Origin: a virus
DNA length: 21,005 nt
Reading direction: 5' to 3' (one strand)
Virus record (IMG/VR): IMGVR_UViG_3300021425_000229
Location: 1 to 21,005 of that record
The stretch's first letter is position 1, and each line of letters starts with the position of its first letter. Made by a program: the position numbers and the translations under genes. This document shows, one piece after another, positions 3,440 through 21,005 of this stretch. The notes beneath the pieces were generated by a model. It saw only the letters and a list, made by a program, of their open reading frames with translations, did no database searches and was not told the DNA's origin.

Positions 3440-4894
3440 TTATACTACCCAAGTGATCATAGAATATCGAGTTCCAGAAGTTACTGGAAGAATTTCGTGG
3501 GGATACATGAAATTTGATGGGAAAATGAGAACATCTCCAACATCAAGTTTATATACTAATTCACGATCAAATAAAGCAACTTCTCCACCTTCATACCCAT
3601 TATTCATTGACATTATAATTGTCAATGTTCTAGGTTCTAACTTAAATGAATCTGTATGTTGAATATAAAAATCACCCACTTCATATTTTAAGAGTTCATA
3701 ACCACTATCTTCTTGAATTTCTAATTCTTTTGGTGATCCTGGATTATTATTTCTATACTCTTCAACTAAATCTTTAACAATTTCAAATAATTTATCATCA
3801 ATCGATTGTCTAATTTCAGGATTTTGTTCAATAATATCTTTCTCAGATGTTGAAATCTGACTACATCTGCGAGCACTTGGGTCATATCCAGATCCAACTA
3901 TTGTTGGTTCCCAAAGGTCTGATTCTACATACTCATTTAGAATATCATCACAAAAATCTGGATCAATAACCTCCTTACCATACCAAATAAAATCTTTTAG
4001 TTGTGACGAAGATTTTTCATTAGAAGATTTTTCATTAGATTCTTCCTTTGGTTTAGGTTTGTTGATTAGATTTGGAGAATCTTTTTTAATTAAAAATTCT
4101 TCATATTTTTTATTGCATATTACAACTTCATCAAAATCTACAAATTCTTCTTCATCTTGGATTTCTTCAATTTCAATGTCCGATTGCCTATTCAACACAT
4201 CATTTCTTTGCTTTTTAATAGCATTGAAAAATGTATTATCATTATCACATTCACTTTCTCTACGATTTCTAGGCAAAATTAAATTTTTTCTAGATTTATT
4301 GGATTGATCTTGCATGTCCTCATACTCCTCTATTAAAATATCTAAATTTTTATTATTCATTGGTTCCTTATCAAAATAATTAGGAGCACAATAACCACGA
4401 CTTCTCACATAATGTAAAAAGAATTGTGCATATTCTGTTCCTTCAAACTTGTTTCTCCAATGTGGTGCAATACACCCTAAGTATAGCATACCATCACCAG
4501 GATTTAAAGTAATACAACGTTCATCACCTTCTGGTGTTTCAATATAAATTGGCCAAGGTTTATCACCTCCCAAATGAAGAGTTACAGATATTTCACACGA
4601 TAAACGATCACAGTGCTTAGTAAGGACAGCTCCATTATGATATATTCTAGAATAAACATATGTTGGTAAAACTGTCTCACCAATAATTTCACCAACAAAT
4701 GGTGTTTTGTTTGCAAGCACCTCTAAAGCAGGAATATAGTCATACTTTGACAAACAATTTGGTACTTGTTGGTCACCTTCAAAATTTAATTTTTTACTAT
4801 CAGCATGAAATTCTTTTTCTAATTTTTTAGCATGTTCTGGACTAATAAAATTGGGAACAACTAAGTAGTTGTTCCTCAACAACTCATTATTCAT
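3440..4894 (-). CDS. twin-domain 2-oxoglutarate/Fe(II) oxygenase, 484 aa
   Basis: Two complete double-stranded beta-helix oxygenase domains in one chain. Domain 1 (about 1-175): LTKHCDRLSCEISVTLHLGG (91-110) gives His94-x-Asp96, and APHWRNKFEG (143-152) gives the distal His145; the usual 2OG-binding Arg is not obvious, with Arg147 or Lys149 as substitutes. Domain 2 (about 300-484): YIQHTDSF gives His413-x-Asp415, YEGGEVALFD is the PKHD/prolyl-4-hydroxylase-type strand, YPHEI gives His466, and GTRYSMITW gives Arg476. A charged, probably disordered linker (about 180-300, rich in E, D, K, S) joins them. The family hydroxylates proteins, small molecules or nucleobases. It sits downstream of two fibre genes and the NATAAATA box at 6630. 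No ribosome binding site is clear; the gap to the upstream gene is 9 bases. Confidence 0.85.
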   Translation of the reverse strand: MNNELLRNNYLVVPNFISPEHAKKLEKEFHADSKKLNFEGDQQVPNCLSKYDYIPALEVLANKTPFVGEIIGETVLPTYVYSRIYHNGAVLTKHCDRLSCEISVTLHLGGDKPWPIYIETPEGDERCITLNPGDGMLYLGCIAPHWRNKFEGTEYAQFFLHYVRSRGYCAPNYFDKEPMNNKNLDILIEEYEDMQDQSNKSRKNLILPRNRRESECDNDNTFFNAIKKQRNDVLNRQSDIEIEEIQDEEEFVDFDEVVICNKKYEEFLIKKDSPNLINKPKPKEESNEKSSNEKSSSQLKDFIWYGKEVIDPDFCDDILNEYVESDLWEPTIVGSGYDPSARRCSQISTSEKDIIEQNPEIRQSIDDKLFEIVKDLVEEYRNNNPGSPKELEIQEDSGYELLKYEVGDFYIQHTDSFKLEPRTLTIIMSMNNGYEGGEVALFDRELVYKLDVGDVLIFPSNFMYPHEILPVTSGTRYSMITWVV

Positions 4895-4903
4895 ATTTTA
4901 TAA

Positions 4904-6226
4904 TTAATTAGATTTATCTATTACATTTTTTAATGCGGAGAACCATTTAACTGCTTTATCTACTGGGAATTCAGTATCTTTATTTTCATTACTGGTAAGA
5001 GATGTATAAAGCTTTTCTGGATCAATTTCATCCATAAGTGCAATAATATCGTCTACAGAATGTTCATTCTTAGATATTTCATTTGCATTTTCATATAAGT
5101 TATTAAGTAAATTTTGAGTAGATGATAATTGTTTCTCAGTACCATCAATAGATTCATCTAAAATTGTGTTTGTAATTTCAGCTTGCTGTTCTAATAATAA
5201 AGTAGAATCTGGGCCCATACCATTTTCAACTATAGATTGTAAATGCATTCTATCTTCTTCAAGAGTTATTCTTTCACGATATATTTGATCTGCAAGTTTT
5301 TCATATTCGGCAAGGTTTGAAGATACTTGATTTTCATAGTTTTGTCTCCTCTCAAGCATGTCATTGATAATTTGTTGATTTGTTTCCCACTGAATAGTGA
5401 GAGCCTCTTTTTCAGCTTGAATTTCCAACTTTCTATTATCTAATCTCTCATATTCCTCTTGAATTAATTGATGATCTAACTCTTTCTGTCGTTCTAGAAG
5501 AACTTCTTTCTCAGCTATATGGATTTCACTTTCTATAGATTCTTTTTCAAGTCTATCCTTTTCTTTTGCAAGTAAATCTTGATATTCTTTTCTTTCCTCT
5601 ATAAAAAGATCCTTTTGTTTCTCAAAATCGATTAAGAGTCTTTCATAATTTTTCTGAAGATCTAATTCTTTATTTTTGAAATACTCGTCTGCTTTTTGAG
5701 TTTCTAATGCAAGTAATTCTTGTTCATGGGCAATTTTTTGCCTTTCAATGGCCATTTTAGCAGTTTCTTGATCATATACTTCTTTTTGTAAGAGACGAGA
5801 TTGCTCATCAAAAAGTTCTTCTCTTTCATCACGAAGTTCTTTATTTTGTCTTTGAAGATCTTCAATAACTACAAGTTGTGCTTCCTTTTCAAGTTTATCG
5901 AGATTCAATTCTTCAATTTGAGCAGCAAGATTTTCCTCTTCTGCTATAGCAGCAGCAAGCTCTTTCTGCTCATAAATTGTCAAAAATTCATTGAAATAAT
6001 TTAAGTAAGGTTTTACAATACTATCAAATTCTTCTTCACCGAAAATTTTATTGGGGACGGGTTTTTGTCCAGGTATATCTTCATACTCTAGTGAACCATT
6101 ACCATCCTTCCATTGAATAGCATGAATATGTTTATCATTAAAATCCCAAGGTGCATTGTCCTCAAGATCAATAGTTTTCCCATCAACGATAATTTTTTTA
6201 TCTTCAGGAATAATAGAAATTTTCAT
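4904..6226 (-). CDS. long coiled-coil protein, possibly fibre-associated, 440 aa
   Basis: Residues 1-65 form a compact domain (IIVDGKTIDLED, IHAIQWKDGNGSLEYED) resembling small domains I associate with phage tail-fibre assembly proteins. Residues about 80-345 are almost continuous coiled coil, very rich in E, K, Q and L with heptad spacing (LAAQIEELNLDKLEKEAQLV and onwards). The C-terminus (VDDIIALMDEIDPEKLY, then a short amphipathic helix VDKAVKWFSALKNVI) may be a docking element. No signal peptide or membrane segment. The ATG at 6226 overlaps the stop of the Cys-rich gene as ATGA. Position behind the two collar fibres suggests a fibre chaperone or a rod-like fibre component, but a structural role is inference. 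Confidence 0.8.
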   Translation of the reverse strand: MKISIIPEDKKIIVDGKTIDLEDNAPWDFNDKHIHAIQWKDGNGSLEYEDIPGQKPVPNKIFGEEEFDSIVKPYLNYFNEFLTIYEQKELAAAIAEEENLAAQIEELNLDKLEKEAQLVVIEDLQRQNKELRDEREELFDEQSRLLQKEVYDQETAKMAIERQKIAHEQELLALETQKADEYFKNKELDLQKNYERLLIDFEKQKDLFIEERKEYQDLLAKEKDRLEKESIESEIHIAEKEVLLERQKELDHQLIQEEYERLDNRKLEIQAEKEALTIQWETNQQIINDMLERRQNYENQVSSNLAEYEKLADQIYRERITLEEDRMHLQSIVENGMGPDSTLLLEQQAEITNTILDESIDGTEKQLSSTQNLLNNLYENANEISKNEHSVDDIIALMDEIDPEKLYTSLTSNENKDTEFPVDKAVKWFSALKNVIDKSN

Positions 6227-6609
6227 TGTTGCTCCTCTTCGGATTTTGGTAGTAATTTTTCTTCAGTATTATCTATACCTTCTATTTGTTCAAAATATTC
6301 TGAGACGTTGACACCTTGGGACTCACACATATCAAGATACATATTACCTACAGCATCTAACATATTTTGATTTGATTGATGCGCATTTACCATTTCATTT
6401 CTAAAGGATTCTACAGCAGAACTAGTAGAACGTTGCTGTTGACTATTTTCAATCATAAGCATTGGCATCCAAGATATTGAACATTGCCAATGATCTACTT
6501 GTTGTCCAGTATTTGGGTCCATTCCCACGATATGCGTGTACCAAGCACACTTATGTTCAACACAATCTTTTTTAATCAGTGGACACCACTTACCAGATGA
6601 TTTAGTCAT
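6223..6609 (-). CDS. Cys-rich conserved phage protein, 128 aa
   Basis: The N-terminal third carries four cysteines, CPLIKKDCVEHKCAWY (C9, C16, C21) and HWQC (C43), with nearby histidines, a possible small metal-binding knuckle (zinc or iron-sulfur). The pattern CPLI-x3-C-x4-CxWY followed by a hydrophobic stretch (SWMPMLMIENSQQQR) and a helix recalls a family I have seen in marine and other tailed phages without function. The rest is helical and acidic. It is translationally coupled to the coiled-coil gene (4-base overlap) and stands behind a NATAAATA box, so it is probably expressed late with the fibres. Confidence 0.8.
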   Translation of the reverse strand: MTKSSGKWCPLIKKDCVEHKCAWYTHIVGMDPNTGQQVDHWQCSISWMPMLMIENSQQQRSTSSAVESFRNEMVNAHQSNQNMLDAVGNMYLDMCESQGVNVSEYFEQIEGIDNTEEKLLPKSEEEQQ

Positions 6610-6629
6610 GAGTTAAAAATTCATTGTTT

Positions 6630-6637
6630 TATTTATT
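6630..6637 (-). promoter_or_regulatory. T4/cyanophage-type late promoter box (AATAAATA)
   Basis: Minus-strand AATAAATA within TTATAATAAATAAAAC lies 20 bases before the ATG at 6609, in the 43-base gap after the Arg-Pro fibre gene. It matches the NATAAATA late-promoter consensus described for T4-like cyanophages. It would drive the Cys-rich, coiled-coil and twin-oxygenase genes. Confidence 0.6.
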
Positions 6638-6652
6638 ATAACACACCAGTGG

Positions 6653-7936
6653 TTAAATACCAAATTTAGTTGCCGCATCTTCAATTTCACATAAAATAAC
6701 ATCAATATATTGTACTCTTAAAGGTGAAAGAGAAATATTCCAAGATACTGGAGCTGGATTAAATGGGTGTGTATGTCCAAGTCCACCACCAGTTGATGAT
6801 GTTGCTGGTGCTTGAGTATTTTGGTTTCTAATAGTACCACCAGGTGATAATGTTCTAAAAGCAACTCTTACACTACTTGTAGCAGGATATCTTTGAACAA
6901 CACGATATGCTCTCGGTTGTCTATATGATTGAGGATTTCTTTGACTTACTGGAACTCGATATGATCTTGGTTGTCTGGCGGGATTTCTTTGAGTAAAAGG
7001 ATATCTGCGTCTATAACTTACTGGTTGTCTATTTCTTACAGAAAATGGGTTTCTACCGCTATTTGGTTGCCTAAAACTTTGTGGCTGTCTTTGAGGAATG
7101 GCGTTTCTCCCAGAGACAGGGTTTCGAAACTGTCTTCTTTGTCTCCAACCAAATCCCCCATTTATTCGGACTCCCCTGGGTTGACGGCCTGGTCGTGGTC
7201 GGAGCCAACCAAATGGGTGAGGCACGAGCGCCCACACCCTTTGATTGACAGGTATTCGAACTCCAGCAATCGGATTTCTCCATCTTCCACCATCTTGTCT
7301 AAAAGAAAATGGTTGTCTCCATGTACTAGGAGAACGAAATGAGACAGGTCTTCTAAAATTAAATGGTTGTCTTGCGTTAGCAGGATATCTTCTTCTATAA
7401 CTTCGTGGTTGTCTTTGTCTTACAGAAACACCATATCTTACACTAACCCTTTGATTTATCGGTTGCCTTACAGATACTGGTTGTCTAAAATTAATAGGAA
7501 CTCTATTATTTTGAGTTACTCTCCTACTATTTCTAACATTATATCCTCTCGGTTGCCTATTTTCTTGTCTAAAAGGTGATGATGATGCAGAAGATCTATA
7601 TGAATTTGGATTACTTCCAGTATTATGTGTATGTGCTGGAAGTTGAGCCTCTGTAAGTGTTGTCTCTTCTACACTTCCACTCATATCTGCGGATACTGGA
7701 CCATTCGCACCAGCATCAGTAAAAAGTGTGCTTATAGAATATATTCCATAAAAACTTCCACCATTTCCACTTACTACTCTAAGTGTTTTATCGTTGTGAG
7801 TATTATCTTGAACCCAACCAGTAGGAGCAGATGCCTGATAGAATACCATTGTAGTATTCTCAGGAATAATTCCATAATATGTGTTTAATTGAGTAGTATT
7901 ACCAAAAGTAATACCATCTACCTGTAAAATTGACAT
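6653..7936 (-). CDS. tail-collar fibre with Arg-Pro-rich insert, 427 aa
   Basis: Residues 1-107 and 373-415 align by eye with the neighbouring 177-aa fibre: MSILQ, YGIIPENTT, VFYQASAPTGW, TLRVVSGNGG, LPAHTHN, then GLGHTHPFN and LRVQYIDVILCE. These are hallmarks of the phage tail-collar domain, in which paired H-x-H histidines may bind metal as in T4 gp12. Between HTHN and GHTHPF lies an insert of about 265 residues built from degenerate hexapeptides R-(Q/N)-P-x-S-x (RQPVSV, RQPFSF, RNPFSV, RQPRSY), very rich in Arg, Pro, Gln and aromatics. A good ribosome binding site (TTGAGGAATATCT) precedes the ATG. Likely role: receptor-binding tip fibre with an extended basic loop. Residues 213-266, where the repeat breaks down, have much higher GC. 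Confidence 0.85.
   Translation of the reverse strand: MSILQVDGITFGNTTQLNTYYGIIPENTTMVFYQASAPTGWVQDNTHNDKTLRVVSGNGGSFYGIYSISTLFTDAGANGPVSADMSGSVEETTLTEAQLPAHTHNTGSNPNSYRSSASSSPFRQENRQPRGYNVRNSRRVTQNNRVPINFRQPVSVRQPINQRVSVRYGVSVRQRQPRSYRRRYPANARQPFNFRRPVSFRSPSTWRQPFSFRQDGGRWRNPIAGVRIPVNQRVWALVPHPFGWLRPRPGRQPRGVRINGGFGWRQRRQFRNPVSGRNAIPQRQPQSFRQPNSGRNPFSVRNRQPVSYRRRYPFTQRNPARQPRSYRVPVSQRNPQSYRQPRAYRVVQRYPATSSVRVAFRTLSPGGTIRNQNTQAPATSSTGGGLGHTHPFNPAPVSWNISLSPLRVQYIDVILCEIEDAATKFGI
6821..7615 (-). repeat. degenerate 18-bp repeats encoding R-Q-P-x-S-x in the collar fibre
   Basis: About 40 imperfect six-codon units, seen on the plus strand as recurring GGTTGTCT and GGATTTCTTTGA words. Longer copies also occur: AGGATATCTGCGTCTATAA near 7000 and AGGATATCTTCTTCTATAA near 7382, each followed by ACTT-(A/C)-x-TGGTTGTCT. 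The array stays in frame throughout. Such arrays usually change by slippage and unequal recombination, so length variation between relatives is expected. Confidence 0.8.
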
Positions 7937-7945
7937 AGATATTCC

Positions 7946-8479
7946 TCAACTAAAACGACAAAGGATTACATCAATATATTGAACTCTCATATCAACATTT
8001 CCTGTATATGGAGATGAAGATCCAACAAATGGGTGAGTATGTGCTTGCCCTCCTCCAGTTGGTGACGTTGCAGGAGCATTAGCATTAACTGCACGACCAC
8101 CAATACCAGGAGATCCTGGACTAACATTAACAGAAGAACCTGCGTTATGAGTATGACCAGGAATTTGTTGGATAGTTAATGTTGTATCTCCAACACTACC
8201 ATCTGCTGTTACATTTCCAGAAATTGGACGAGTAGAGTTGGGAAAAATTGTTGTAAATGGCTGTCCCCCAGGACCAGCAGTTCCACCAGATCCAAAACCA
8301 CCACCAGTTCCACTTACAACCCTAAGTGCTTTATTGTCATGGGAAGTAACTTGTGTCCAACCACTAGGAGCAGAAGACTGATAAAACACTGCTACACTAT
8401 TTTGTGGAATAATTCCATATTTTGAATTTAAAACCGTAGAATCACTAAATTGTATACCACTCGTTTGTAAAATTGACAT
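7946..8479 (-). CDS. tail-collar fibre protein, 177 aa
   Basis: A compact collar-domain protein: MSILQTSGIQFSDST, YGIIPQNSVAVFYQSSAPSGW, ALRVVSGTGGGFG, IPGHTHNAGS (H-T-H pair), GGGQAHTHPFVG (second H-T-H pair) and the C-terminal strand MRVQYIDVILCRFS. This is the phage tail-collar (T4 gp12-like) arrangement without insert, with a Gly/Pro/Ser loop of about 30 residues where its downstream paralogue has about 265. The two genes are 9 bases apart and clearly came from a tandem duplication. Late expression is indicated by tandem NATAAATA boxes about 30 bases upstream. Probably a virion tip or fibre protein at the cell surface contact. Confidence 0.85.
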   Translation of the reverse strand: MSILQTSGIQFSDSTVLNSKYGIIPQNSVAVFYQSSAPSGWTQVTSHDNKALRVVSGTGGGFGSGGTAGPGGQPFTTIFPNSTRPISGNVTADGSVGDTTLTIQQIPGHTHNAGSSVNVSPGSPGIGGRAVNANAPATSPTGGGQAHTHPFVGSSSPYTGNVDMRVQYIDVILCRFS

Positions 8480-8506
8480 ATTATACAGTTCTATCTATCA
8501 TTAGTT

Positions 8507-8518
8507 TATTTATTTATC
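8507..8518 (-). promoter_or_regulatory. tandem late promoter boxes (GATAAATAAATA)
   Basis: Minus-strand GATAAATAAATA contains two overlapping NATAAATA matches (8518-8511 and 8514-8507), 27 bases before the ATG at 8479. It overlaps the stop codon of the oxygenase gene at 8514-9176, so the fibre genes can be switched on independently of the oxygenase operon. Confidence 0.6.
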
Positions 8519-9176
8519 CAATATTAAATGCAATCGAAATTCTAGTTTCTTCACTAAAATGCGGTTTCACATAATGTGCTATAGTGGATGGCATAATATA
8601 GAGATGTCCAACTTTTGGAGTAATTGCCCATTCACACATATTAGGTAAATCTGCAAACATATTATTATGGCAAAGTGCATCGCATCTAAGTAAATGCAAT
8701 TTTCCATCCCCATCGAGCATATTTTTTGGTACTGATGGATAATATAGCCCTATAAGATTGCACCCAGGATGAGTATGATGAACGTTATATCCATATCCAG
8801 TATTAATATTAATCCACCATCCAATGGAATTATCATCTAATCTATATTCAATCTTAAATTCTTCAAGTATTTGATTTGATAAATCTACAGCATTTCTTGC
8901 TAAATTTTGAATTCCTGGTGTTAGATTTTTTAAAATATGAGATAATTCATAAACATCACTTTGCCAACCTCCACCATGGTTAGATTTTTTAACTCCTTTT
9001 GGGAATGCTTTCATCAAATCTAAACATTCATTTTTAATGATATCATTATCGATTTCCAACTCAAAATCATAGAATGGAGTAACAAATATATCTTTCTTAT
9101 CAAGGTTTTTAACTATCAACTCTTCAAAATTTTCATCAGAGTCAATAGATGTTTCATAAAATTTATGTTCAGCCAT
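8514..9176 (-). CDS. 2OG-Fe(II) oxygenase, TIGR02466-like, 220 aa
   Basis: Seen in order: GWWININTGYGYNVHHTHPGC (119-139), LIGLYYPSVP, a loop with CDALCHNN, WAITPKVGHLYIMPSTIAHYVKPH (183-206), and EETRISIAFNIG at the end. The double-stranded beta-helix residues are His134-x-His136 as iron ligands, distal His201, and Arg212 for 2-oxoglutarate. This matches the putative 2OG-Fe(II) oxygenase family that ends in RxSIxFN. CGGAG about 8 bases before the ATG is a good ribosome binding site, and the gene overlaps the preceding oxygenase by 8 bases. Substrate unknown. It is the last of four consecutive oxygenases and directly precedes the collar fibres. Confidence 0.85.
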   Translation of the reverse strand: MAEHKFYETSIDSDENFEELIVKNLDKKDIFVTPFYDFELEIDNDIIKNECLDLMKAFPKGVKKSNHGGGWQSDVYELSHILKNLTPGIQNLARNAVDLSNQILEEFKIEYRLDDNSIGWWININTGYGYNVHHTHPGCNLIGLYYPSVPKNMLDGDGKLHLLRCDALCHNNMFADLPNMCEWAITPKVGHLYIMPSTIAHYVKPHFSEETRISIAFNIG

Positions 9177-9891
9177 TTTTTTTCTCCGTTAAAAAGAACA
9201 CTTGATTTATTCTATATTCTGCATTACTCCAATGATCTGCAAAATAGTTTTCACCAGTTAAATTCATACTATGATAATAATATGAACCCTCAAACATCAC
9301 AAAACGATTAAATTTAGATCTAAGTCTAAGTATAACTTCCCAGTAGCTTTTTGGTTCCCATGGTTTACCATGTTCATCTCTGTCTGCATTATTTTCATCT
9401 AATGGAAGAATATCAGGTCTATCAGTAAAACGAGGTTTATAAAGGTTAGTTCCTATTTCATCATACTTACTTAAATAGCATATTCCATTATATCCGCTAT
9501 CGTGATGTGGCCACCAATAATGACTTTCACATAGTTCTGTTTTACTAAATCTGCTAAAATTCGTAACAATATCATTGTCATTTGCTTCTTGAAAGCATAT
9601 TTCACCCAAAGATTTCATTAGATTTTCCATACCTGGATGTTGCATCATATGCCTACGATCTTCAAAATCAATTGTATTTCTAGACATTTTATCCGTTTTC
9701 CATTCTTCGGTCATTTTCCATAATGGAGGCTCTACAGAAGTTAGATAATCATATACATCGTATGGTCTTTTATAAAAATCATCCATCCAGTAAATATTAC
9801 TTACTTTATCCTCATCAACAAACTCAATGATATTCATATTAGAAAAATCATTAGTTTCAAATAAACTTAGATCATCAGTAAATTTTTTCAT
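9169..9891 (-). CDS. 2OG-Fe(II) oxygenase-like protein (DUF6445-like), 240 aa
   Basis: Core pieces: SHYWWPHHDSGYNGICYLSK (123-142) with His129-x-Asp131, LRSKFNRFVMFEGSYYYHSMN (190-210) with distal His207, and YRINQVFFL (226-234) with Arg227. The strand order and the sentence-like pattern PHxD, NRxVxFxG-x3-YHSM, YRxNQVFF resemble a group I know as DUF6445, regarded as 2OG-Fe(II)-oxygenase-like. ATG at 9891 overlaps the upstream stop as ATGA, with AAGGAAAT 9 bases earlier. It has little similarity to its oxygenase neighbours outside the iron site, so the four genes are not recent duplicates. Substrate unknown. Confidence 0.8.
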   Translation of the reverse strand: MKKFTDDLSLFETNDFSNMNIIEFVDEDKVSNIYWMDDFYKRPYDVYDYLTSVEPPLWKMTEEWKTDKMSRNTIDFEDRRHMMQHPGMENLMKSLGEICFQEANDNDIVTNFSRFSKTELCESHYWWPHHDSGYNGICYLSKYDEIGTNLYKPRFTDRPDILPLDENNADRDEHGKPWEPKSYWEVILRLRSKFNRFVMFEGSYYYHSMNLTGENYFADHWSNAEYRINQVFFLTEKKNG

Positions 9892-10451
9892 AAAAATATT
9901 TCCTTTATTTTTTTATCATCTAAACAAAATCCGAATACCCACAATATTCTCGGAGTATTACCTTCAGTTCTAGTAACTTCATGGTAAACTTCCGATACTT
10001 GATATATCATAAGATCTTGTGAGGTAAGATCATCATATTTTACACCATCAACAATAATATGTCCACCAGTCTCTGCTTGCTGCGTAATAACATTAAAATG
10101 AACAGTTTTAGTTCCCGAATAATATACGGGATCGATATGTTCAACTATATCACCTCCCCCATATCCAATACCATTTACGATCCCATGACTATATGATGGT
10201 GGACTTTTATATCCCTCAAGACCAAAGTGATCAATAATTCTTTGCTTTATAATAAAAGCCGATACTGGATAATTTATATTTGGAGCAATCGATTCATTTG
10301 CAACTCTCGTGGTAAATCTTGTCGCAGCATTAAATGTATCCATTTTAGCATCTTCAAAGATTTCTCTATTGCAATTTGCAAGAGTCCATTGATTTAATTG
10401 ATTTACAATATTTTTTGATATAAAATTTCTTAAAATAAAGCATTTATTCAT
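9888..10451 (-). CDS. 2OG-Fe(II) oxygenase, prolyl-4-hydroxylase-like, 187 aa
   Basis: I place the start at ATG 10451 because GAGGT lies 9 bases upstream; an ATG at 10460, overlapping the previous stop as ATGA, would add MIN. Counting from that longer form, GYGGGDIVEHIDPVYYSGTK (99-118) supplies His108-x-Asp110, TVHFNVITQQAETGGHIIVDG is the core strand pair, VYHEVTRTEG supplies distal His160, and TPRILWVFGFCL supplies Arg171. Strand order and the ETGGHI turn are close to prolyl-4-hydroxylase-type enzymes (where EGGEL is common). No signal peptide, so it acts in the cytoplasm. Substrate could be protein, small molecule or base; the neighbouring Arg-Pro fibre is one candidate. Confidence 0.8.
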   Translation of the reverse strand: MNKCFILRNFISKNIVNQLNQWTLANCNREIFEDAKMDTFNAATRFTTRVANESIAPNINYPVSAFIIKQRIIDHFGLEGYKSPPSYSHGIVNGIGYGGGDIVEHIDPVYYSGTKTVHFNVITQQAETGGHIIVDGVKYDDLTSQDLMIYQVSEVYHEVTRTEGNTPRILWVFGFCLDDKKIKEIFL

Positions 10452-10456
10452 ATTAA

Positions 10457-11086
10457 TCATACCTCAAATGGAGGTCGATCAAATTCAGATACAATATTAA
10501 ATGATAAAATTAGTCTAGGAACATTTGATAAATTTGGTTCTGTATAGTGAAGAACATATGATGGAAAGAATATTAAAGATCCTTCATAAATTTCCATAGG
10601 AAGAAAATTTAGATTCATTTCATCGCATAAATTTGGATTTAAAAATACAGTCGGAGTATGATGTTTTGGATCAAATTCAATGAAACATACAGCACTAAAT
10701 CCAGACACTCCATGATTGTGAGTAGAATGCTGTTTTCCCATACTTGCTTTTTCAAACCAAGTAGTACACACTTCAACACTACAATCAAATGTATCAGAAA
10801 GTATTTCTAATTCATCTCTCAATATATTGGTAATTTCTTCATCATAATTTTCTCCAGTATCAAAATTATGATGATAATCAGTTTCTACATCATGAGGTGT
10901 TTCTCTTTTATTCAGCACCTTAAAAACTTCTTTTTGAGATTTTCTAGATTCATATATCTCAAGAAGTGCTTTCTTTTTCTCTTTCCAATTTTTTACTCTT
11001 AGGTGAAGAAGATGATTCGAAAACATTGGAAGCAAATAGTCATCTCCCTTATTTGGGGGATCGACATACAAAGAAAAATCTGCCAT
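10457..11086 (-). CDS. 2OG-Fe(II) oxygenase, TIGR02466-like, 209 aa
   Basis: WFEKASMGKQHSTHNHGVSG (110-129) gives His123-x-His125, FSAVCFIEFDPKHHTPTVFL is the following strand pair, EGSLIFFPSYVLHYTEPN (168-185) gives distal His180, and VPRLILSFNIV gives Arg191. This is the same fold and motif order as the gene at 8514-9176, but the two differ strongly in the N-terminal half. There is no clear ribosome binding site: an A/T-only stretch precedes ATG 11086, 6 bases after the 74-aa gene. It is the first of the four oxygenases, and no promoter is visible in front, so it may be read through from the helicase unit. Confidence 0.85.
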   Translation of the reverse strand: MADFSLYVDPPNKGDDYLLPMFSNHLLHLRVKNWKEKKKALLEIYESRKSQKEVFKVLNKRETPHDVETDYHHNFDTGENYDEEITNILRDELEILSDTFDCSVEVCTTWFEKASMGKQHSTHNHGVSGFSAVCFIEFDPKHHTPTVFLNPNLCDEMNLNFLPMEIYEGSLIFFPSYVLHYTEPNLSNVPRLILSFNIVSEFDRPPFEV

Positions 11087-11092
11087 TTTTAA

Positions 11093-11317
11093 TTAATTAC
11101 TTTTTAATTTGGAGTTCTTTTTTTGATATTTTAGCACATCTTTCAATGCTGTGTCAAACTTTCGGTATACTTTATCAATTTGCTTTCCTTCAACAATTAA
11201 CATCCACGTTTTATCTCCAATCATTGGAATAACAACAAAGTTTCCATCATCAGAGCAATATTGTGGAATATAATTTGGTTCTAGAATTGTTGAGTTATCA
11301 AAACTATATTTTTTCAT
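11093..11317 (-). CDS. hypothetical protein, 74 aa
   Basis: A small basic protein: MKKYSFDNSTILEPNYIPQY, then FVVIPMIGDKTWMLIVEGKQI (two likely strands) and a lysine-rich C-terminal helix (ALKDVLKYQKKNSKLKSN). The ribosome binding site AAGAGGTG is formed by the last codons of the helicase, whose stop lies 3 bases before this ATG, so it is coupled to the helicase. No motif recognised; the basic tail would suit nucleic-acid binding, but that is a guess. Confidence 0.7.
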   Translation of the reverse strand: MKKYSFDNSTILEPNYIPQYCSDDGNFVVIPMIGDKTWMLIVEGKQIDKVYRKFDTALKDVLKYQKKNSKLKSN

Positions 11318-12580: not shown

Positions 12581-12609
12581 AATATAGAACCCCTCAACCG
12601 AAAAGTCAA
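12581..12609 (-). promoter_or_regulatory. sigma-70 early promoter for the helicase
   Basis: On the minus strand TTGACT (12609-12604) and TATATT (12586-12581) are spaced by exactly 17 bases, close to consensus. ACCCCT and AGGGGT (12614-12609 and 12594-12589 on this strand) flank the spacer as a 6-base inverted repeat that could be an operator. It decides the helicase start in favour of ATG 12559. Confidence 0.7.
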
Positions 12610-12623
12610 GGGGTATGGACCGA

Positions 12624-12639
12624 TCAAATAAGTGTCACA
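12624..12639 (+). repeat. inverted copy of the 16-base TCAAATAAGTGTCACA element
   Basis: TCAAATAAGTGTCACA here is the exact reverse complement of 3191-3206. It overlaps the last codon and stop of the methylase gene and lies 14 bases upstream of the helicase -35. The second stem arm present at 3206-3214 is missing here. Confidence 0.6.
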
Positions 12640-13534
12640 CCTTCACAATGAGGATCTCATGAGAGTCCTTTTTGCTATGTTCTACACCTCGTTCTTTCTT
12701 ATATTTTCCTACTCTTTTTTCACCTGCTTGGTATGAATAATGCCACTCAGGATAGTAGAGATCAAAGTCTTTGTAATACTCTCGAATTGTCTCACAATTA
12801 TTGTAAGAGAGAATAAAACTGCCTTTATGATTGTGTAGGAGATCTCTCAACTTTTCATGATCAAATCCAGTATGATGAACTCCAATATTGCAGTTAGGAT
12901 ACATTGGTTTCAACATCTTATTATCCGAATCTTTATCCAAGTAATATGGTGGATCAAGATATAGTAAATCCTTTGGAAAATTAGGAATCACTTGATCAAA
13001 TGATTGTTCCTCTACATGTAATTTTGGATTCCGATAAGATCGAATATAATGTACCATCTTATCCCACTTCGTCTGACTCTCATAAATCTTACTCATCCAT
13101 CCCATATACATGGGTCCATAAGAAAGATTATGATTGAAGTAATAATATGCAGCAGCAGTAATGTCATCTAATTGGATAGGATCACGTTTGTAGTGATCTG
13201 TCTTCCAATCTTTGAGCATTTCTTGAGTATAATCCCACCGAACTAGTTGTTCTTTAATATACTCATAGTTTGGTTTAGTAGGAACTAACTCCTGAAGTTT
13301 ATCTGCAAACTCATTAGGTGAGTTCAACAAAACATTCCAGAAGTTGACAAGTGCATGAAAGATGTCAAATCCATGCACATCAATTCCTAACTCAGATGAC
13401 CACTTTGATTCTAAAGAACCTCCCCCAATAAAGGGGGAGATGATCCGTTCTGGATATGGAAGTTTGGGAATATATTCAGTAATAATCTTATATGCCTTAG
13501 ATTTACCACCAGCATAACGAATTGGAGTTTTCAT
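12635..13534 (-). CDS. DNA adenine-N6 methyltransferase, D12 class, 299 aa
   Basis: PIRYAGGKSKAYKII (4-18) is the N-terminal motif X of Dam-type enzymes, ISPFIGGGSLESKW (32-45) is the FxGxG S-adenosylmethionine motif, GFDIFHALVNFW contains the acidic motif II residue, and LYLDPPYYLD (191-200) is the catalytic DPPY of motif IV. The order X-I-target region-IV marks the alpha/D12 class, and length is typical (T4 Dam and E. coli Dam are slightly shorter). It methylates adenine in DNA; GATC is the commonest target of this class, but the site here is not known. Its ATG overlaps the stop of the GIY-YIG-like gene as ATGA, so the two are made together. Confidence 0.92.
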   Translation of the reverse strand: MKTPIRYAGGKSKAYKIITEYIPKLPYPERIISPFIGGGSLESKWSSELGIDVHGFDIFHALVNFWNVLLNSPNEFADKLQELVPTKPNYEYIKEQLVRWDYTQEMLKDWKTDHYKRDPIQLDDITAAAYYYFNHNLSYGPMYMGWMSKIYESQTKWDKMVHYIRSYRNPKLHVEEQSFDQVIPNFPKDLLYLDPPYYLDKDSDNKMLKPMYPNCNIGVHHTGFDHEKLRDLLHNHKGSFILSYNNCETIREYYKDFDLYYPEWHYSYQAGEKRVGKYKKERGVEHSKKDSHEILIVKV

Positions 13535-14097
13535 TTAGTCTTACGATCGATCTTGTATTGTCCAAATGCTTCGTGGATATTAGCAGGAAGTGATACACCA
13601 GTTTCCTGATAATTCCACTTTGGATAGTTTCCTTCAATAGTATTATACTGCATCAAGCAGTTTTCTTCAATACCCTTAGCACTTACAGGAACTGTAATCT
13701 GTTCGGACTTAAACAGACCAGGAACATCAACAACAATCGGATCCATGTAGATCATATAAACTTCTACCTTGTTACCTTTGTCCAGTTCTTCCCTCATGAA
13801 CCAGTTGATAGCAAAACGATTGATACCAGGGTCATCTTGACCAGCACTGAGATAAAAACCCATGCAACCCTGAATGCCACTCTTAGTGGAAGATTGTCCG
13901 ATTTTGTAGATCTCTCCATTCACACACAGAATGTAGACAAGAGAGACATGCTTGGTCTTCAACTTCTTGGGGAAGTTGGCATCATAGTTCATTACAAGTT
14001 TGGTCTTGTAAAGAACATGCTTAGGACCAGAATAAACATCAGTCCCGTGAACAATCTCACCAACTCGGAGAGCATTGGGAACGTCAGTGATCAGCAT
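13531..14097 (-). CDS. GIY-YIG-like nuclease candidate, 188 aa
   Basis: HVSLVYILCVNGEIYKIGQS (50-69) has VYI and, 7 residues after it, YKIG, which matches the paired GIY...YIG strands of that nuclease family. Further pieces fit: Arg94 (NRFAINWFMREE) as possible catalytic arginine, and GIEENCLMQYNTIEGNYPKWN (142-162) with Glu144 and Asn162, where restriction enzymes of this type have their metal-binding Glu and conserved Asn. The arginine lies farther from YIG than usual, which lowers certainty. I recall similar proteins in T4-like cyanophages. The overlap with an adenine methylase makes a restriction-like or host-DNA-degrading role plausible. The stretch 14098-14173 upstream has no gene and holds a probable promoter. 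Confidence 0.8.
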   Translation of the reverse strand: MLITDVPNALRVGEIVHGTDVYSGPKHVLYKTKLVMNYDANFPKKLKTKHVSLVYILCVNGEIYKIGQSSTKSGIQGCMGFYLSAGQDDPGINRFAINWFMREELDKGNKVEVYMIYMDPIVVDVPGLFKSEQITVPVSAKGIEENCLMQYNTIEGNYPKWNYQETGVSLPANIHEAFGQYKIDRKTK

Positions 14098-19315: not shown

Positions 19316-19323
19316 TATTTATG
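19316..19323 (-). promoter_or_regulatory. late promoter box (CATAAATA)
   Basis: CATAAATA overlaps the stop of the protease gene and lies 14 bases before ATG 19301. Spacing is tight, so the transcript would be nearly leaderless. Confidence 0.45.
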
Positions 19324-21005
19324 ATTGGGTAAAATCTATTCCTTCAATATTAACTCCTTCTACAGAAGATTTTTCATTATTAGCAAATGGATTGAAAAGA
19401 ACTCTTGGAGTTGTATCTCTCAATGCAGTTGTACTTCCCCAGTAACTACGATTTGTAAAATCTGGTTGAGAATCTCTTAGTGGTGCTAACACTGATCCGT
19501 GATCAAACAACCAATTTCTCACGTCAACTCTTGTTGCATCTGGTTTTGATTGTAAATATAATGCAAGAACACCAGTTACATTTGGTGCAGCCATGCTTGT
19601 TCCTTGTAAGTAGTTAATAAAGTAACTAAAATTTCTTGGATCAAAATATCCAGTGTTCCATGGGCAAAGAATATCACCACCAGCAGCAGTTATATCAATT
19701 CTTGGTCCTCTATTTGTATAATCATCTAATGTTTCTTGACCGACACTATAATATTCGGATAAAGCAGCAACACTAATTACTGCATCTGGTTTTCCTTCAT
19801 GACCAACTGCTGGAGTTCCACCTCTACACCAATAACTATCATAATCAGATTTAGTATAATAAAATGTTCCTGTTAAAAATTCATTATTATAATCAACACC
19901 ACCAACATCATCTTGCTTAGATTTTGAATTACCAGCAGAACATACAAAAATTACGTCTTGACAATCTGGATCATCTAGAAGTTCGTCCATTGTAGTTTGA
20001 CCACTTACTTTTCGAGTTGTAAACTCAAAATAAACACTATTTCTATTTAAAAAGTAGATAGAATCATATGCTTCACCAAGATATTCATCACCACCATCAG
20101 TGTAGGTAGTTCCTCTAAATGTTGCACTAGAAGCTAAGTCTTCTCTCACAAATTGTCTATGTCCCCAACTACAATTTACAATCGTTGGATTTCTTCTTCC
20201 AGTTTCTGGATTGATTGGTTTATTTTTATGCCATACCTTAATATAATCAAATCCATCAGATGGTTCTGCCCATCCAATATCAGAACGATCTATACAAGCA
20301 ATGGTCCAAAGATTTGCTTCAAATGCAAGACCAAATTGATTACCCGCAGCAGTTCCTCCAACGTGAGATCCGTGCCAAGATCCATTAAAAGTACTCGATT
20401 CTAAAGCATTTGCTACATTATAATTTGTATATGGAGATGATCCTGGAGAAACTAGACCAAAATCCTCCCAAGTATATGTTCCAGCTTCTTCTGGACCATG
20501 TAATAAAATATCTCTAACTCTTGTACTATTTTTATCAACAAAAGATGTAACACCTGGTTTTAAGAATTCTGGATGATCCCAACGAATTCCAGTATCCATA
20601 ATTACAACATCAACATTTTTTCCAGTAAATTGATATTTAATATCAGCACTCACATCAATTTCTGATCCAAAAGGATCATCTCTGTATCCATGACGATGTA
20701 AACCCCATTGAGTAAAATCTAAAAGAGCATTATCAACTGGTGTTGGATCTCCACCTGCTCGTTTATGTCTGATATCACTATTTTTATATCTAAATGCATC
20801 AGAATGACGATCAAATTCCTCATCAAATTTTCTTTGTTCTAAACAAGTTGGATTGTAAGTAGAAGACTCTTCAACCCATTCAATCTTAGGATGCTGTCTT
20901 AAAACTTCTGCTTCTTCTGCAGAAATTTGATACACTGCCCTCTTTGTTGAAAAGGGCATTTCAGCAGTGCAGTCTATTCTTCTGTTTGGTATGCCATCAA
21001 TTTCA
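19319..21005 (-). CDS. subtilisin-like serine protease (5' end outside the window)
   Basis: The frame stays open to the window edge (EIDGIPNRRIDCTAE precedes the first internal Met at 20959) and that Met has no ribosome binding site, so the true start lies further right. Numbered from that Met: the start of the visible part (KRAVYQISAEEAEVLRQHP) resembles the end of an I9-type propeptide; then the S8 triad: DVVIMDTGIRWDHPEF (Asp122), NGSWHGSHVGGTAAG (His196), LQGTSMAAPNVTG (Ser455), with oxyanion Asn344 in CSAGNSK. All catalytic residues are present, so it should be active after removal of the propeptide. Insertions between His and Ser make it longer than subtilisin. Just upstream of fibre genes in late order, it may mature a virion or fibre protein or be carried on the particle; that is inference. 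Confidence 0.92.
   Translation of the reverse strand, partial: EIDGIPNRRIDCTAEMPFSTKRAVYQISAEEAEVLRQHPKIEWVEESSTYNPTCLEQRKFDEEFDRHSDAFRYKNSDIRHKRAGGDPTPVDNALLDFTQWGLHRHGYRDDPFGSEIDVSADIKYQFTGKNVDVVIMDTGIRWDHPEFLKPGVTSFVDKNSTRVRDILLHGPEEAGTYTWEDFGLVSPGSSPYTNYNVANALESSTFNGSWHGSHVGGTAAGNQFGLAFEANLWTIACIDRSDIGWAEPSDGFDYIKVWHKNKPINPETGRRNPTIVNCSWGHRQFVREDLASSATFRGTTYTDGGDEYLGEAYDSIYFLNRNSVYFEFTTRKVSGQTTMDELLDDPDCQDVIFVCSAGNSKSKQDDVGGVDYNNEFLTGTFYYTKSDYDSYWCRGGTPAVGHEGKPDAVISVAALSEYYSVGQETLDDYTNRGPRIDITAAGGDILCPWNTGYFDPRNFSYFINYLQGTSMAAPNVTGVLALYLQSKPDATRVDVRNWLFDHGSVLAPLRDSQPDFTNRSYWGSTTALRDTTPRVLFNPFANNEKSSVEGVNIEGIDFTQS

Follow-up and report, generated by a model that had tools for sequence, protein, structure and literature searches.

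The DNA analysed here (the window) is the complete 21,005-base IMG/VR record IMGVR_UViG_3300021425_000229 of a T4-like cyanophage. From a helicase gene to a gene for a twin-domain oxygenase, it carries a single unbroken block of same-strand genes with intergenic gaps of -8 to 43 bases (Table 1), and we ask how the 2-oxoglutarate (2OG)-Fe(II) oxygenases of this block relate to the fibres they flank. Four oxygenase genes, oxD, oxC, oxB and oxA (8514-11086; referred to below as the run), overlap one another by 4-8 bases; the twin-domain protein comprises an N half, dblN, and a C half, dblC. As the first-pass annotation of this DNA had stated, the oxygenases enclose two collar-type fibre genes, fib2 and fibR; a coiled-coil gene and the Cys4 gene lie in the enclosed region too. 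Among isolates, Synechococcus phage S-SCSM1 (Kyanoviridae) is the nearest; in it the gene set and order from helicase to twin oxygenase are identical and two more oxygenases come after the twin oxygenase. Since the gene order is kept in S-SCSM1 and in about 25 metagenomic contigs, the arrangement of oxygenases and fibres goes beyond chance.

Table 1. Features of the helicase-to-twin-oxygenase block, in window coordinates
Feature	Position	Strand	Evidence or remark
74-amino-acid protein	11093..11317	-	in relatives, always between helicase and oxD
oxD, 2OG-Fe(II) oxygenase, PF13759/phrog_81	10457..11086	-	PF13759 1.2e-10; H-x-H, H, R conserved
oxC, 2OG oxygenase without Pfam family	9888..10460	-	model pLDDT 94.7; H108-x-D110, H160, R171 invariant
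oxB, 2OG oxygenase-like, phrog_1644, DUF6445-like	9169..9891	-	phrog_1644 1.2e-27; H129-x-D131, H207, R227 invariant
oxA, 2OG oxygenase, PF13759/phrog_81/TIGR02466-like	8514..9176	-	PF13759 1.4e-14; H-x-H, H, R conserved
Two overlapping ATAAATA late-promoter-like boxes before fib2 (8507/8511), over the oxA stop codon	8507..8517	-	coding-strand motif
fib2, short collar-type fibre without insert, 177 amino acids	7946..8479	-	66-87% identity in close relatives
fibR, collar-type fibre with insert, 427 amino acids	6653..7936	-	both termini homologous to fib2
257-residue Arg/Gln/Asn/Pro insert of fibR, two-residue register	6845..7615	-	between two HTH motifs
ATAAATA late-promoter-like box before Cys4 gene	6630..6636	-	coding-strand motif
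Cys4 protein (C9, C16, C21, C43), constant collar-fibre partner	6223..6609	-	>600 stretches in IMG/VR
Coiled-coil protein	4904..6226	-	N-terminal relative adjoins fibres in P-SSM2
Twin-domain 2OG oxygenase (dblN + dblC)	3440..4894	-	C half PF13640 1.6e-13

The insert distinguishes fibR from fib2, whose homologue in S-SCSM1 is annotated as a virion protein. It contains 57 Arg, 32 Pro, 26 Gln and 21 Asn, and has neither Lys nor Cys, and Ser and Tyr are frequent in it too; the dozens of R-Q-P units first ascribed to this fibre come down to 12 exact R-Q-P and 25 R-x-P. Across the inserts compared, successive prolines are nearly always an even number of residues apart: a spacing of six was observed 326 times against about 60 in shuffled sequences, and the odd spacings 1, 3, 5 and 7 were observed 7, 15, 6 and 6 times against 112, 87, 68 and 53. 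In the window, Pro and Arg occupy one parity and Phe, Tyr, Val and Gln the opposite one (residues on the Pro-rich parity: Pro 30/32, Phe 0/14, Val 1/24, Gln 1/26, Tyr 1/11). Because the Pro spacing is even and the residue types are split by parity, the sequence suggests a two-faced insert in extended beta-strand register and speaks against collagen, a polyproline helix or a disordered tail. A collagen-like Gly-X-Y repeat was considered and rejected, since Gly makes up about 4% of the inserts and the periods are 2 and 6, not 3. The insert measures 257-258 residues in 12 window-type phages, and conservation reaches 90% or more in 70 of its 76 Arg columns and 22 of its 29 Pro columns. Across 31 distinct inserts the Arg fraction ranges from 0.12 to 0.34 and that of Pro from 0.07 to 0.14, with Lys near zero, and in some relatives Gln or Asn replaces Arg. 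Inserts were called by a composition window; counting [RQN]xP had missed four of them (L012 and L016-L018). With the whole fibre as tblastn query, nothing came back but S-SCSM1 and some weak collar hits; the insert is probably masked by the low-complexity filter.

All six oxygenase domains recognised in the first-pass annotation were confirmed, at the same coordinates, by family, motif or fold evidence, and the H-x-D/H, distal H and, mostly, R it had described in each are borne out by alignments of relatives. The metal-binding residues of all six are invariant in alignments that reach down to 30-48% identity. A double-stranded beta-helix fold is predicted for oxC and both twin domains from models and for oxA and oxD from Pfam, and an H-x-D/E...H triad is present in oxB, oxC, dblN (H94-x-D96/H145) and dblC (H413-x-D415/H466/R476). 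The motif of oxA and oxD is H-x-H...H, not H-x-D, which makes the ligand set of both tentative. TIGR02466 matches oxA at 7.7e-15, under that family's cut-off. Placement of oxB in the superfamily comes from PHROG and from weak DUF6445 matches (3.5e-4, under the cut-off). For oxC, profile searches gave no significant family match and the assignment comes from its structure model, which Foldseek matches to WelO5 (2.9e-8), PHD (3.7e-8) and prolyl 4-hydroxylase (P4H; 4.2e-8), with a VIA Z score of 15.4 to PHD and vCPH. The model of the twin protein matches OGFOD1 (2.2e-11), Tpa1, P4H and PBCV-1 vCPH. For oxC and the twin C domain alike, PHDs and P4Hs come first among the matches, yet tie with WelO5 and SnoN. 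We considered and rejected oxC as a WelO5-type halogenase: the expected Gly/Ala is absent and Asp110 is invariant in 17 oxC sequences. Since Asp110 is retained, hydroxylation is the expected reaction of oxC. A PHROG match at 1e-61 (2954/3531) labels dblN 'ferrochelatase', and the model predicts a separate beta-rich domain there. This candidate too was rejected, for no Pfam ferrochelatase match was found, the H-x-D...H motif is present and the model resembles twin-domain 2OG oxygenases. That label, 'minor coat protein' on oxB and 'endonuclease V' look like mis-annotations of these oxygenases.

We then compared loci with and without the insert, using as search anchor the Cys4 gene, since it is found with both insert and insert-less collar fibres. 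The best 80 of 600+ stretches were pooled with loci from other searches, and loci with enough upstream sequence were counted after clustering by Cys4-protein identity. At 90% identity, 13 clusters had both insert and run, 19 had neither, and none had either one alone; at 95% the figures were 21 with both and 24 with neither, and at 80% one mixed cluster appeared, as clusters then merge both kinds of locus. No insert-less collar locus examined had oxA plus oxB upstream of its fibres. Relatives with the run equally often in front of fibres lacking Arg-Pro repeats, which the first-pass annotation had named as a counter-sign, were absent from the surveyed loci. When the survey was anchored on oxC, an insert fibre was present in 33 of the 35 loci with enough downstream sequence; the two exceptions had a lone distant oxC adjoining ribonucleotide reductase genes and no run. 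Lone distant oxC-like genes also occur at four insert-less loci (L106, L134, L137 and L139), so what accompanies the insert is the run rather than the oxC family at large. The twin oxygenase behaves differently. It or its relatives lie downstream in 58/58 insert loci and 43/49 insert-less loci and, being about equally common beside insert-less collar fibres, it is not insert-specific. The sister module, whose fibres are short, has no run but retains the Cys4 gene, the coiled coil (81-350 residues there, against 431-502 at insert loci) and the twin oxygenase. Of the fibre-hydroxylation cassette as first proposed, with all six domains, these comparisons support a tie to the insert fibre for the four-gene run; they do not support one for the twin oxygenase.

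Further repeat fibres were sought with a DNA pattern written for R-Q-P-x-x-[YF]-R-Q-P, which takes no account of oxygenases. It recovered the window-type cassette and a second group in T4-like marine phages, consisting of two tandem genes that lack the collar domain and are built of [RQ]-x-P-F-T-Y units in the same even register. (Most matches of a QQP pattern proved to be unrelated Pro/Gln-rich proteins.) In all five contigs that could be read beyond these fibres there follow a GT8-like gene, a small gene, a PF13640 oxygenase, a phrog_7084 gene, a PF13759 oxygenase and then neck genes. The GT8-like gene (match 4e-4 in one copy) is a probable glycosyltransferase, and PF13759 is the family common to the oxygenase sets of both lineages. 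In a survey of the best 80 of 221, repeat fibres lay upstream of the PF13640 oxygenase in 45/45 loci with at least 5 kb upstream. The second module is widespread (L294-L298, L303-L382); no isolate turned up when its fibre or oxygenase served as tblastn query. Neither end of the fibre is alike in the two lineages, which makes it probable that the pairing of fibre and oxygenase arose twice; the repeats themselves may be homologous.

The strict co-occurrence of run and insert, together with the repetition of the pairing in the second lineage, marks the four-gene run as a fibre-linked set. We consider it probable that the fibre is the substrate of the run, and grade Pro as the modified residue somewhat lower; the run's substrate, target residue, timing and effect on the virion are all inferred. 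In the mechanism that we propose, oxD-oxC-oxB-oxA would form a fibre-maturation cassette acting on the insert of the neighbouring fibre and hydroxylating residues on its polar face (Pro, Arg or both being the likeliest) before or during trimerisation of the fibre chain. Flanked by two HxH collar motifs, the insert would form a shaft or tip of extended beta structure, and hydroxylation of its prolines might alter stiffness or receptor binding. The twin oxygenase may instead serve the collar fibre generally, through fib2 or the common collar part. The ATAAATA boxes ahead of fib2 and the Cys4 gene are retained in most relatives, most of which have TAAATA in the same position before fib2, and no such box precedes the run on the coding strand; an earlier caution that the run lacks a late box is upheld. 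CTAAATA, the late consensus, was discarded as a signal because it is no more frequent than chance, ATAAATA being the informative form. The run, in the helicase block, could hence be made ahead of the late fibres and be ready for the nascent chain.

Several observations weigh against this reading. In a tree of the twin N domain all insert loci fall in one clade (99/93 support, all bootstraps), so the run-insert count reflects a single gain inherited together and its Fisher values are inflated; judged from the sequences, run and insert were gained once and kept across considerable divergence. The second-lineage survey was itself anchored on the oxygenase. The fold matches also take in halogenases and epimerases. 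Finally, 2OG genes abound in marine T4-like phages (S-SCSM1 has 24; PMC9602691), and most of these are distant from fibres. The published view is that such enzymes act on the host: the authors of S-SCSM1 proposed host reprogramming for its 24 2OG genes (PMC9602691), and 2-oxoglutarate/NtcA effects or DNA repair had been proposed earlier for cyanophages (PMC3037559). The oxygenases would then reprogramme host metabolism, through 2-oxoglutarate/NtcA signalling or small molecules, and the fibre neighbourhood would be merely a variable region of T4-like marine phages. The fibre-adjoining region is hypervariable in related phages (PMC7029224) and related oxygenases lie near ribonucleotide reductase or DNA genes elsewhere (L061, L158), but this explanation accounts neither for the absence of the run from all insert-less sister loci nor for the repeated pairing in the second fibre lineage, and we regard it as unlikely. 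Marginally less likely still is modification of the fibre elsewhere than at Pro or Arg (at Asn, at Tyr or in the collar part), or its oxidation ahead of a further step such as glycosylation. That there are four different oxygenases points to several sites, the insert abounds in Asn, Ser and Tyr, and a GT8-like gene stands between fibres and oxygenases in the second lineage; few features of the insert are, however, as well conserved as its Pro spacing and its Arg and Pro columns. That the enzymes modify glycans or lipids of the cell surface or phage for receptor recognition, the insert fibre binding the modified surface, seems very improbable: in S-SCSM2R the Cys4 gene and twin oxygenase do adjoin glycosyltransferases, but neither the window cassette nor S-SCSM1 has a recognisable sugar gene in the stretch from helicase to twin oxygenase. 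DNA-base modification, suggested by a Dam-type methylase nearby (12635-13534), can be dismissed, as no domain matched TET/JBP or AlkB-type families in profile searches and nblA replaces the methylase in the corresponding slot of S-SCSM1. With hydroxylation of the fibre by the run as the preferred reading, we tentatively extend it, at a little under even confidence, to a general fibre-hydroxylation system of marine T4-like phages, in which dedicated 2OG sets would act on Arg/Gln-x-Pro beta-register fibres of at least two unrelated types, one with glycosylation to follow.

Other features of these genomes deserve mention. The Cys4 protein, probably an assembly or metal protein, is a very common fibre partner lacking a name; more than 600 viral stretches have its gene behind collar fibres, as does a Roseobacter podovirus. 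In S-SCSM2R (L056, 9299-18810) the Cys4 gene and twin oxygenase have no adjoining fibre and are followed by glycosyltransferases, including one of family 25, a radical SAM maturase and an amidinotransferase. Pelagibacter phage Mosig (L060, 5757-10842) has six 2OG-type genes, a haem oxygenase and a PcyA-like gene right after a Gly-rich fibre, which is another fibre-oxygenase pairing with a different repeat. Within the window, a hairpin, ACCCCTTGAC-TTTTCG-GTTGAGGGGT (12589-12614, minus strand), with a UUCG-type loop and followed by TATATT, lies immediately upstream of the helicase; its pairing is preserved in relatives despite altered bases, and we interpret it as a terminator and/or a promoter with operator. 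The methylase near the run is accompanied by an endonuclease gene (12635-14097), and a gene for a subtilisin-like protease (PHROG 3677, 9e-29) sits amid tail fibre genes at 19319-20959.

The 2OG oxygenases of marine cyanophages are among their commonest unexplained genes and are usually classed as host-metabolism genes. If our proposal is true for a subset, their role would be structural and bear on receptor binding, and oxygen-dependent hydroxylation of viral surface proteins would extend from giant viruses to bacteriophages. The hypothesis is directly testable in S-SCSM1, a cultured phage with an existing virion proteome. We know of no earlier hydroxylated bacteriophage fibre, and a search of the open-access literature found no link between phage 2OG enzymes and tail fibres. 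Among cyanophages, P-SSM2 (PSSM2_027-031) has the same Cys4 gene, a coiled-coil relative and a dblN-like oxygenase beside collagen-like collar fibres; its Pro-rich fibre repeat is Gly-X-Y and the four-gene run is absent there. Of cellular enzymes, the ribosomal prolyl hydroxylases OGFOD1 and Tpa1, to which Foldseek matches the twin protein best, likewise have two double-stranded beta-helix domains per chain, although the metal motif is kept in both domains of the phage twin protein and the match is a low-resolution, whole-chain one (pLDDT 72, large root-mean-square deviation). The nearest solved relatives of the twin C domain are bacterial P4Hs (B. anthracis 3itq/5hv0, P. putida 4j25; sequence profile 5e-5). 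Those enzymes have other substrates; by their structure titles, the ones from P. putida and B. anthracis are solved with or linked to EF-Tu. WelO5, the top Foldseek match of oxC, is a halogenase, and oxC, unlike WelO5, keeps Asp110. The closest precedent is found in PBCV-1 vCPH (PDB 5c5t), which is among the best fold matches of both oxC and the twin protein, and in the collagen lysyl hydroxylase/glycosyltransferases of mimivirus (PMC9546862, PMC5802723), viral enzymes for which the virus's own repeat proteins are the proposed substrate. Those are viruses of eukaryotes with collagen Gly-X-Y repeats, whereas here a bacteriophage would direct four different oxygenases at a non-collagen repeat in beta register.

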